Positions 57,408-60,762 of a DNA stretch of 64,000 nucleotides are shown here, one piece after another; within the stretch, counting starts at the first letter, position 1; each line of letters starts with the position of its first letter. The notes under the pieces were generated by a model. The model ran no database searches. It was not told the origin of the DNA and was given only the letters and a program-made list of their open reading frames with translations. The stretch covers positions 372,001-436,000 of the forward strand of contig NC_014220.1 of the NCBI RefSeq assembly GCF_000092405.1. Direction: 5' to 3'. The position numbers and the translations under genes were made by a program. Origin of the DNA: Syntrophothermus lipocalidus DSM 12680. GTDB taxonomy: Bacteria > Bacillota > Syntrophomonadia > Syntrophomonadales > Syntrophothermaceae.

Positions 57408-57626
57408 ATGTGGGAGAAGTTTATTATGCACTTACTGGAGTACCATCGCGGTAAGGCCATCGGGATCCTGGTGGGTCTTGTAGCCGGGATATTGATGGTG
57501 GTCTACGGTTTTTGGAAAACCCTTTTGATCATTTTATGTGTTTTAGTCGGTTACAGCATTGGCAGGAGCCTGGATGAAAACGGCCGGTTTGATGATTGGA
57601 TCCAGCGGGTTTTCAAGAACAGGTAG
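57408..57626 (+). CDS. DUF2273 small membrane protein
   Basis: A 72-residue protein with a central pair of hydrophobic stretches (KAIGILVGLVAGILMVVYG, LLIILCVLVGYSIGR), typical of DUF2273 proteins linked to Asp23 and AmaP. ATG at 57408 is 10 nt after AGGAGG; an ATG at 57399 is only 1 nt away and unlikely. Confidence 0.85.
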   Translation: MWEKFIMHLLEYHRGKAIGILVGLVAGILMVVYGFWKTLLIILCVLVGYSIGRSLDENGRFDDWIQRVFKNR

Positions 57627-57642
57627 GGGAAGGGGACTGTAC

Positions 57643-58059
57643 TTGAGCAGAAGTTTGGCAAGAGAAACCGCCTTCAAGGTGTTGTTTCAAGTGGATCTGG
57701 CGGGAGCGTCTCCAAGGGATGCTTTGCAGCATTTGACTGCGGAGACTCCCCTGGCCGACCGGTACTTGGCTTTTGCCAGAGAATTAGTTGATAAAACCCT
57801 TGAGCACGTGAAGACCATCGACAGCTATATAAGCAAGTACTCGCCAGAATGGAGCATTAGCCGGATGGCGACCGTTGATCGAAACATCATGAGGATGGCC
57901 GTGTGTGAAATGTTGTATACCGAGATCGACCCGGTCGTGGTCATTAACGAGGCGGTGGAGTTGGCCAAAAAGTACGGTGATGAAAACTCCAGCAGTTTTA
58001 TCAACGCCATTTTGGACAGGATAATGGGGGAAAAGAGTGAAGGGTTTTCTCGGGATTGA
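57643..58059 (+). CDS. nusB: Transcription antitermination protein NusB
   Basis: RNA-binding partner of NusE that supports rRNA antitermination. SLARETAFKVLFQVDLAG at the start and INEAVELAKKYGDENSSSFINAILD at the end are typical. The TTG start at 57643 has AGGGGAAGGGG upstream; an upstream extension of this frame runs through the DUF2273 gene and is rejected. 138 residues. Confidence 0.93.
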   Translation: MSRSLARETAFKVLFQVDLAGASPRDALQHLTAETPLADRYLAFARELVDKTLEHVKTIDSYISKYSPEWSISRMATVDRNIMRMAVCEMLYTEIDPVVVINEAVELAKKYGDENSSSFINAILDRIMGEKSEGFSRD

Positions 58060-59017
58060 TACCAGCGCCTATACCACGTCCGTGGCCCTGGTCGACCAGC
58101 GCGGGGAACTGGTAGCCGATAAGAGAGAGGTATTGAAGGTTGAGCTGGGAAAACGAGGTCTCCGCCAGTCAGAGGCTTTGTTCGCCCACATAAAGAACCT
58201 TCCTTTTTTATTTGGCGAGATGGAACCGTATTGGGCTACCTATTCTCTGGCGGCAATAGCGGTCAGCGATCGACCCCGCAACGTAGCCGGGAGTTACATG
58301 CCGGTTTTCCGGGCAGGAGAGACGGTGGCCCGCTCTATTGCCAGTGTCATGGGTATTCCCCTTTTTACCTTTAGCCACCAAGAAGGGCACATAATGGCCG
58401 GGGAGAGGGGAGCTGGGGTTAATCTGCCAGAAAGATACATAGCCGTGCATTTCTCTGGAGGCACTTCCGAGGTTCTACTGGTACGGCCGGGGCAGTCTTC
58501 ATATTACGATATATCGATTTTGGCGGCGACGGCTGACCTGCACGCAGGGCAGTTGGTGGACCGTGTAGGGGTTAAGATGGGACTGCCGTTTCCTTGCGGC
58601 AAGTTCATGGAAGAACTGGCCCAAGAATTAGCCCCAGAAAAATGTGGGCTAAGAATTCCGGCAGCGGTGAAGGGGGACTCCTTTTCTTTTTCTGGAGCTG
58701 AAGCCCAGGCCTTTCGGTGGTTAGATAAGGGGGCACCTTTGGCTGAGGTTAGTCGGGCTGTGTTCTTGTGCATAGCCAATACCCTGGAAAAAGTTATTCG
58801 AGAAAAAGCGAAGATCTTAGGCGTCAAGGATGTTTTGCTGGTGGGAGGTGTGATGGCCAATTTCATCATAAGGGAGAGGCTCAAGGAAAGGCTTTCCCAT
58901 CCTTCGTTGTCATGTCGGCTTCACTTTGCCCCGCCCGGCCTGAGTTCGGACAACGCGGCAGGAACGGCTTGGTTGGGGTGGATGACGTGGTTAAAAACGA
59001 CGAGGAAAGAGGTGTGA
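58037..59017 (+). CDS. Kae1/TsaD-like protein (second paralogue type)
   Basis: ASKHA-fold protein of the M22/TsaD superfamily with GIDTSAYTTSVALVD, the metal-site HxxxH in FSHQEGH (about 114-118), VHFSGGTSEVLLV and LSSDNAAGTAWLG. It is shorter and more divergent than true TsaD, and clostridial genomes often carry such a gene between nusB and xseA besides tsaD. A role in tRNA t6A synthesis should not be assumed. Overlaps nusB by 23 nt. Confidence 0.78.
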   Translation: MKGFLGIDTSAYTTSVALVDQRGELVADKREVLKVELGKRGLRQSEALFAHIKNLPFLFGEMEPYWATYSLAAIAVSDRPRNVAGSYMPVFRAGETVARSIASVMGIPLFTFSHQEGHIMAGERGAGVNLPERYIAVHFSGGTSEVLLVRPGQSSYYDISILAATADLHAGQLVDRVGVKMGLPFPCGKFMEELAQELAPEKCGLRIPAAVKGDSFSFSGAEAQAFRWLDKGAPLAEVSRAVFLCIANTLEKVIREKAKILGVKDVLLVGGVMANFIIRERLKERLSHPSLSCRLHFAPPGLSSDNAAGTAWLGWMTWLKTTRKEV

Positions 59018-59020
59018 CTG

Positions 59021-59899
59021 TTGCAAGCTAACATTCTCTACGGAAAAAATTTGGCAGATACCATATTGGCGGGGGTAGCCCAGGGGGTTAAGGAATTAAA
59101 GCAAGAAGGGATTAATCCTTGTCTCATGACGGTTCAAGTGGGAGAGGACCCGGCTTCCCAGGTATATCTTTCTTCTCAGCGCCGGCTGGCAGAAAGAGTC
59201 GGTATCAGCTGTGAACTCATAGAATTGTCTGCTAATACTTCGGAGGATCGGTTGTTCAAAACCATAGACAACCTCAATCGGGACCCGGCGATTAACGGAA
59301 TAATCCTGCACATGCCACTTCCGTCCCATATCAATAGCAAAATGGCTCAGTGGAGAATTGCCTACCAAAAGGATGTCGAAGGCGTGACCCCGTACAACCT
59401 GGGGCGCCTGCTTTTGGGTATGCCTCAACTGGTTCCTTGTACGGCCCTCTCAGCGGTTGAACTTGCAAAGTCCACCGGAGTCGACTTTGCTGGCAAAGAA
59501 GCTGTAGTCATAGGGCGCAGCGATATTGTCGGAAAACCTTGTGCCTTGTTGCTGTTAGCGGAGAACGCCACGGTTACTATCTGTCACAGTTTCACTTCTA
59601 AGAGGGGCTTGTTAGAGGAACATACGCGTCGTGCTGAGATTCTCATCGTAGCTATGGGACATCCTCAGGCAATAAAAGGAGAATGGATTAAGGAAGGGGC
59701 TGTAGTCATCGATGTAGGCATGAACGCGGTAGGCGACAAACTGGTGGGCGACGTGGAATTTGAAGAAGCCAAGAGCCGAGCTGCGTACATAACTCCGGTT
59801 CCGGGAGGAACGGGAACGGTTACCGTAGCTTTCTTGTTACAAAACCTGGTAAGAGCGGCCAAATGGCAACTCGAAAGAGAAACCCAAGGGAAGGGGTAG
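59021..59899 (+). CDS. FolD paralogue 1: cofactor site intact, catalytic residues changed
   Basis: Methylene-THF dehydrogenase/cyclohydrolase family, 292 residues, TTG start with AGAGGTG upstream. The NAD(P)-binding loop is canonical (VVIGRSDIVGKPCALLL and TICHS) and TPVPGGTG is present. The catalytic residues differ: YLSSQ has Gln53 where E. coli FolD has Lys54, ILHMPLP has His97 for Gln98, and KDVEG has Glu120 for Asp121. Tyr49 is kept. This suggests loss of cyclohydrolase activity with dehydrogenase possibly retained. It may work with the next gene, which has the opposite pattern. Confidence 0.85.
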   Translation: MQANILYGKNLADTILAGVAQGVKELKQEGINPCLMTVQVGEDPASQVYLSSQRRLAERVGISCELIELSANTSEDRLFKTIDNLNRDPAINGIILHMPLPSHINSKMAQWRIAYQKDVEGVTPYNLGRLLLGMPQLVPCTALSAVELAKSTGVDFAGKEAVVIGRSDIVGKPCALLLLAENATVTICHSFTSKRGLLEEHTRRAEILIVAMGHPQAIKGEWIKEGAVVIDVGMNAVGDKLVGDVEFEEAKSRAAYITPVPGGTGTVTVAFLLQNLVRAAKWQLERETQGKG

Positions 59900-59907
59900 G
59901 CTGTAGA

Positions 59908-60762
59908 GTGGATACAGTGATAGTCAAAGGCTCGGAGATGGCCAGTGTTATCAAAGCAAAACTAAAAGAAGAAGTAAACGACTTGTTTCCCAAACCTCAA
60001 CTGGCGATATTGTTAGTCGGTGACGATGAGGAGAGCCGACGGTACGTACGCTTGAAAGAAAAGGCGGTAGACGAAATAGGAGGTCAATGCCGAGCAATCA
60101 ACTTGCCTGAAAATACCACTTTGGTGGAATTACTCGGGCAGATAAGAGAGCTGAATGCGGATCCCCACACTCACGGCATCCTGGTGCAGTTGCCTTTACC
60201 TGGCCCTTTGGCGACTGAGCAAGAAACAGTCCTGTCTTCGCTCAGTGTAGTCAAGGATGTCGACGGTTTTCACCCTTTTAACCGCGGTAAGCTGTTTTCT
60301 ACACCTCCTTTTCTCGTGAGTTGTGCCGCCCTGGCTTGTATGGATATAATCACCATGTATCGTAATCCCAGGGGGCTTTTGACAGTACTGGTGGGGGATT
60401 CTTTTGATCTGGTCCAGCCGCTGGCCCTTTTGCTCATGGCTCGCGGGAGCCGGGTATGTATTATACCCGAGGCCCATGAGTGGGAAGAGGTAGCAGCCAG
60501 GGCCGATGTACTGGTGGTCGAAAAAGGTCGCCCCCTGATGGTGAAGGCGGATCACCTCAAACCGGGAGCCTTGGTGATAGATGCTGGTTTTCATTGGGAA
60601 GCAGGCCGGGTTTGCGGGAATGTGGACCCGATGTCGGTGACAGGAAAGGCTGGATGGCTGGTTCCGGTGCCAGGGGGCATCGGACCTTTGTTGATAGCGA
60701 AGTTGCTCGAAAACCTGCTTACCGCCTATCGGGAGCAGGTCTTCGCTGCTGACGATTGGTAA
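59908..60762 (+). CDS. FolD paralogue 2: catalytic residues intact, cofactor site degenerate
   Basis: Second FolD homologue, 284 residues, starting 8 nt after the first (GTG with AAGGGG upstream). The catalytic set is canonical: YVRLKEKA (Tyr46, Lys50), GILVQLPLP (Gln94), KDVDGFHP (Asp119). The dinucleotide loop is altered to VGDSFDLVQPL and the CHS motif to IPEAHEW, so NAD(P) binding looks doubtful. VPVPGGIGP is kept. This fits a monofunctional methenyl-THF cyclohydrolase. Divergence from paralogue 1 is high, so the duplication is not recent. Confidence 0.85.
   Translation: MDTVIVKGSEMASVIKAKLKEEVNDLFPKPQLAILLVGDDEESRRYVRLKEKAVDEIGGQCRAINLPENTTLVELLGQIRELNADPHTHGILVQLPLPGPLATEQETVLSSLSVVKDVDGFHPFNRGKLFSTPPFLVSCAALACMDIITMYRNPRGLLTVLVGDSFDLVQPLALLLMARGSRVCIIPEAHEWEEVAARADVLVVEKGRPLMVKADHLKPGALVIDAGFHWEAGRVCGNVDPMSVTGKAGWLVPVPGGIGPLLIAKLLENLLTAYREQVFAADDW

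Follow-up and report, generated by a model that had tools for sequence, protein, structure and literature searches.

Two FolD-family genes between nusB and xseA

The window, i.e. the whole stretch of 64,000 nucleotides of the Syntrophothermus lipocalidus genome that was analysed, carries two adjoining genes of the FolD family at positions 59021-60762, both on the plus strand. The genes of this region are as follows:

57559-58059, plus strand: nusB, an open reading frame (ORF) that marks the standard folD locus on its upstream side, located 5' of folD2 order-wide
58037-59017, plus strand: divergent TsaD-like gene between nusB and folD1 (PF00814, 85.5 bits), conserved in position
59021-59899, plus strand: folD1 (gene 1), predicted from the site alignment to be a dehydrogenase-only FolD; PF00763 and PF02882
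59908-60762, plus strand: folD2 (gene 2), predicted from the site alignment of 46 orthologues to be a cyclohydrolase-only FolD; PF00763 and PF02882
60800-62032, plus strand: xseA, an ORF that marks the standard folD locus on its downstream side, located 3' of folD2 order-wide

The start codon of folD1 is TTG at position 59021, while folD2 most likely begins with GTG at 59908, immediately past the folD1 stop codon; an alternative, longer ORF of folD2, starting with ATG at 59863, would overlap folD1. The TsaD-like gene, whose score lies under the NCBIfam TsaD cut-offs, sits between nusB and folD in much of the order. A scan for promoters and terminators gave nothing usable.

Both proteins match PF00763 and PF02882 above the cut-off and are full-length FolDs by Pfam. 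The best PDB matches of their predicted structures (pLDDT of 94.5 for FolD1 and 92.4 for FolD2) are all FolD/MTHFD enzymes, aligned over the full length with TM-scores of about 0.8-0.9. The identity between FolD1 and FolD2 is 33%.

Active-site and cofactor-site residues

FolD is a textbook bifunctional enzyme, present as one protein in most bacteria. FolD1 and FolD2 share the fold and both Pfam domains with the bifunctional FolD/MTHFD enzymes of E. coli (1B0A), P. aeruginosa (4A5O) and human (MTHFD1, 1A4I), but each is devoid of the residues for one activity: FolD1 retains the NAD(P) site, and FolD2 the folate/cyclohydrolase site. Aligned on E. coli FolD, FolD1 has Y50, Q54, H98 and E121 (K54Q, Q98H, D121E), and its NAD(P) loop (GRSDIVGKP) and CHS motif are intact, whereas FolD2 has retained Y50, K54, Q98 and D121, its cofactor loop reads GDSFDLVQP and IIPEAHE stands in place of the CHS region. 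This alignment confirmed the initial annotation, which had reported Gln, His and Glu beside an intact loop in gene 1, and the four retained residues beside a degenerate loop without CHS in gene 2. The substrate/cyclohydrolase set of bifunctional FolDs (Y50/K54/Q98/D121) is therefore absent in FolD1 (YQHE) and present in FolD2 (YKQD), while the set of NAD(P)-site features (GxSxxVGxP loop, CHS, A209, T142, T267) is found in FolD1 and lost in FolD2.

Q54 and E121 are fixed, or nearly so, in the gene-1-type sequences (n=33), and the FolDs that accompany FolD2 in the same genomes carry Q, I, L, A or other residues at position 54, have D121E and retain the cofactor residues. With the conservation seen in FolD2 (see below), this shows that the pattern did not arise by chance. 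As to the possibility, considered in the initial annotation, that such substitutions are common in ordinary FolDs, K54 and a loop of the normal type were seen in each of 80 named FolDs, drawn from many phyla; this control set came from a scan of named genomes with generic FolD motifs, which returned only ordinary FolDs and whose patterns required Q98 or D121 but left K54 and the loop free.

In E. coli FolD, the K54N mutant has about 19% of the dehydrogenase activity and no detectable cyclohydrolase activity, and the Q98H mutant 8% and about 1%, respectively (PMC5688156). The cyclohydrolase step of human MTHFD2 requires no cofactor (PMC9173628). Taken together with the residues described above, these data lead to the prediction that gene 1 encodes a dehydrogenase only and gene 2 a cyclohydrolase only. 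As Q98H alone removes 92% of the E. coli FolD dehydrogenase activity, FolD1 could be a weak dehydrogenase.

It might also be argued that both proteins are still usefully bifunctional and that their differences reflect drift or a shift in cofactor or substrate preference, since the overall FolD fold is retained in both predicted models and the E. coli K54 or Q98 single mutants keep part of their dehydrogenase activity. However, the changes are reciprocal, fixed in all orthologues examined and absent from ordinary FolDs, and the loss of K54 in the K54N mutant abolished any measurable cyclohydrolase activity, which makes this explanation extremely improbable.

FolD2 orthologues (n=46) were gathered from relatives within the same order, and the NADP contacts given for human MTHFD1 (PMC3368264) were mapped onto them. 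Y50, K54, Q98, L99, D121 and G261 are invariant in all 46 sequences, while the NADP-contact positions bear a new conserved set of residues: T142A (93%), A167D (89%), I170D (100%), A209E (100%), V210K (91%) and I232F (95%). H190P also belongs to this set, as does, nearby, T267L; position 167, occupied by D in FolD2, is usually R in other FolDs. The motifs G-D-S-F-D, E-K-G and A-G-F-[YH]-W of the former cofactor site are highly conserved. In view of the open frame and the invariant residues in 46 orthologues, we rejected the possibility that FolD2 is a pseudogene.

As the former cofactor site is conserved and does not drift, it suggests a positive role. FolD2 might be a new, order-wide, dedicated methenyl-THF cyclohydrolase whose former NAD(P) pocket was rebuilt for another ligand, e.g. 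a folate-flux regulator, a suggestion that we consider doubtful. The conservation of the three motifs would also suit a situation in which FolD1 is a dehydrogenase and FolD2 acts off-pathway or in a new role, binding folate and a different ligand in the rebuilt pocket, whether to regulate, to serve as a partner subunit or to catalyse a reaction with another cofactor. This is unlikely, as the cyclohydrolase residues K54 and Q98 are invariant, and the conserved C-terminal residues may do no more than keep an empty domain stable.

Distribution of FolD2 and FchA

The S. lipocalidus assembly is closed (a single contig of 2,405,559 bp) and contains one formate-THF ligase. Neither a third FolD-like gene nor a match to the FTCD_C/FchA cyclohydrolase family (PF04961) was detected in this complete genome, and FchA encoded elsewhere in it was therefore rejected as a source of cyclohydrolase activity.

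A census of gene content covered 59 members of the order having FolD sequences. FolD2 and a K54-less FolD are found together in 42 of them, and in a further 5 together with FchA. Eight members lack FolD2 but carry a K54-less FolD and FchA. In one, FolD2 is accompanied by a FolD fragment; the sole FolD of G051 is an ordinary bifunctional enzyme; and K54-less FolDs are all that G011 and G039 have. FolD2 or FchA is thus present in 55 of the 57 genomes with a K54-less FolD, and in no genome of the census does an ordinary FolD occur alongside FolD2.

Among the genomes at least 85% complete (G012, in which FolD was not found, was excluded), 37 contain FolD2 only, 4 both proteins, 7 FchA only and 1 neither. 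The mutual exclusion of FolD2 and FchA is large but not total (Fisher p=2.8e-5, in a test that ignores relatedness). It is visible even within one genus (g23), where FolD2 is the only one of the two in G036, and FchA the only one in G047. Most absences of FolD2 coincide with the presence of FchA, as expected if FolD2 is a cyclohydrolase, which speaks against a new role of FolD2. Gene content partitions as split functions predict, which argues against two bifunctional proteins.

In the wider phylum, K54 or Q98 is lost in all 25 sampled FolDs adjoining fchA, which do not constitute a random sample, as many of the linked pairs were deliberately picked; an intact YKQD protein occurs in 27 of 27 sampled genomes lacking FchA. 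Loss of cyclohydrolase residues in a FolD thus goes along with a separate cyclohydrolase, which suggests that FolD2 fills that place here. The Clostridium formicoaceticum and C. perfringens enzymes are FolD dehydrogenases working beside FchA. FolD1 would fit the kind represented by the fchA-linked FolDs of Clostridia, in which K54 or Q98 is lost beside a separate cyclohydrolase: its cyclohydrolase residues are gone, its cofactor site is retained, and the predicted FolD2 is the candidate separate cyclohydrolase. However, the partner of the fchA-linked FolDs is the unrelated FchA (PF04961), whereas the partner proposed here is a paralogue of FolD itself. FolD2 has the same proposed reaction and the same place in gene content as FchA, but the two families are unrelated, and FolD2 would be an analogue of FchA in function only.

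The fchA-linked FolDs of the phylum (L259-L280 and others) often carry Q98E with the loop GRGETVGKP (YKED), or are of the YAMD/YLLD type, and represent a separate route to the loss of cyclohydrolase residues. An additional, long-branched FolD (YILD, loop GASMVVGKP) was observed in G023 (L091), on a contig that also carries, close by, a second formate-THF ligase gene; this genome also has the usual FolD2 and dehydrogenases.

Of the two genomes with neither FolD2 nor FchA, G039 is only 84% complete, while G011 is 99% complete, and at its locus L039 (approximately 1460-1510) xseA lies directly 3' of folD1, folD2 being absent. The case of G011 suggests that a dedicated cyclohydrolase may be dispensable. 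This organism may rely on another enzyme or on spontaneous hydrolysis, which methenyl-THF also undergoes (PMC5688156).

Gene order, phylogeny and the predicted division of the two reactions

Wherever its flanks were read in the order, folD2 was located at the standard folD site, nusB-(TsaD-like)-folD2-xseA. folD1 is placed directly 5' of folD2 in about a dozen genomes; in the others the dehydrogenase gene is unlinked and falls either into the gene 1 clade or into another one (YxQE). One and two origins of these two K54-less dehydrogenase clades were not separated by the AU test (p=0.398). FolD1 and FolD2 fall into deep, separate clades, and this, together with their 33% identity, led us to reject a recent tandem duplication; the initial annotation's reading of the tandem paralogues as one enzyme split in two, if taken as a tandem duplication, is thus unsupported.

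The same holds for the heterodimer proposed there, as the gene for FolD2 mostly lies apart from that of its partner, which may come from either of two dehydrogenase clades. An obligate FolD1/FolD2 heterodimer, with one activity per chain and channelling between the chains, would be in line with the dimeric state of FolD in known structures and with the adjoining genes of S. lipocalidus and about a dozen relatives. On the other hand, the genes are unlinked in most genomes, the partners of FolD2 are gene-1-type or YxQE-type dehydrogenases of separate clades, and some genomes have a K54-less FolD without any FolD2, and so we find such an assembly very unlikely.

Family f28 possesses a cousin tandem pair at the same site, i.e. 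a YQQE FolD and, after it, a YKQD FolD which has the loop GWSIEIGKP and VHP. FolD2 and the second gene of f28 lie on one side of a branch with a support of 100/99, and gene 1 and the first gene of f28 are likewise grouped (100/100). The former branch retained a support of 99 after removal of the cofactor-site columns, and an artefact caused by the cofactor loop was therefore rejected. A209E is common to FolD2 and the second gene of f28, whose form, less degenerate than FolD2, resembles an intermediate stage. A match to FTCD_C is also present in several f28 genomes. Pairs of this kind (L211, L212, L214, L215, L217, L218, L220, L221 and L224), seen in f28 and in G178 of family f16, are mostly located between nusB and xseA; the cofactor loop of their YKQD member is altered in part.

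The predicted separation into a dehydrogenase-only and a cyclohydrolase-only protein, as put forward in the initial annotation, seems well supported by the reciprocal order-wide conservation, the way in which FolD2 and FchA stand in for each other and the published mutants, and further by a genome without a third FolD and without FchA. We infer that FolD1 would convert 5,10-methylene-THF into 5,10-methenyl-THF using NAD(P)+ and, with K54Q, Q98H and D121E, should leave the product unhydrolysed. The intact folate site of FolD2 would then take methenyl-THF, to be hydrolysed with the participation of K54 and Q98 to 10-formyl-THF. The Rossmann domain of FolD2 presumably no longer binds NAD(P), and for this reason FolD2 should not be a dehydrogenase. 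The two proteins, each most likely a homodimer, would act in series via released methenyl-THF, with FolD2 performing the role that FchA plays in relatives without FolD2. We consider this arrangement as a whole quite probable.

To our knowledge, the known monofunctional members of the FolD family retain only the dehydrogenase. Yeast MTD1 (1EDZ), a monofunctional FolD-family dehydrogenase, has the FolD fold and, at a weak sequence match, the dehydrogenase-only function predicted for FolD1, but MTD1 covers only this half, unlike the predicted cyclohydrolase-only FolD2. A characterised cyclohydrolase-only FolD-family protein was not found in the literature, which is weak evidence of absence given the collision of 'FolD' with 'fold' and the fact that subscription journals were mostly uncovered. 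FolD2 would represent a class of dedicated cyclohydrolases that has so far gone unrecognised.

If this is true, a natural cyclohydrolase-only FolD would mean that both half-reactions are separable within one fold. It would also explain the supply of 10-formyl-THF in bacteria which have a K54-less FolD and are devoid of FchA, and the annotation of both genes would be corrected across an order of syntrophic bacteria. FolD1 and FolD2 might also be helpful, as natural proteins, in assigning residues to reactions and in testing whether the coupling of the two steps matters.
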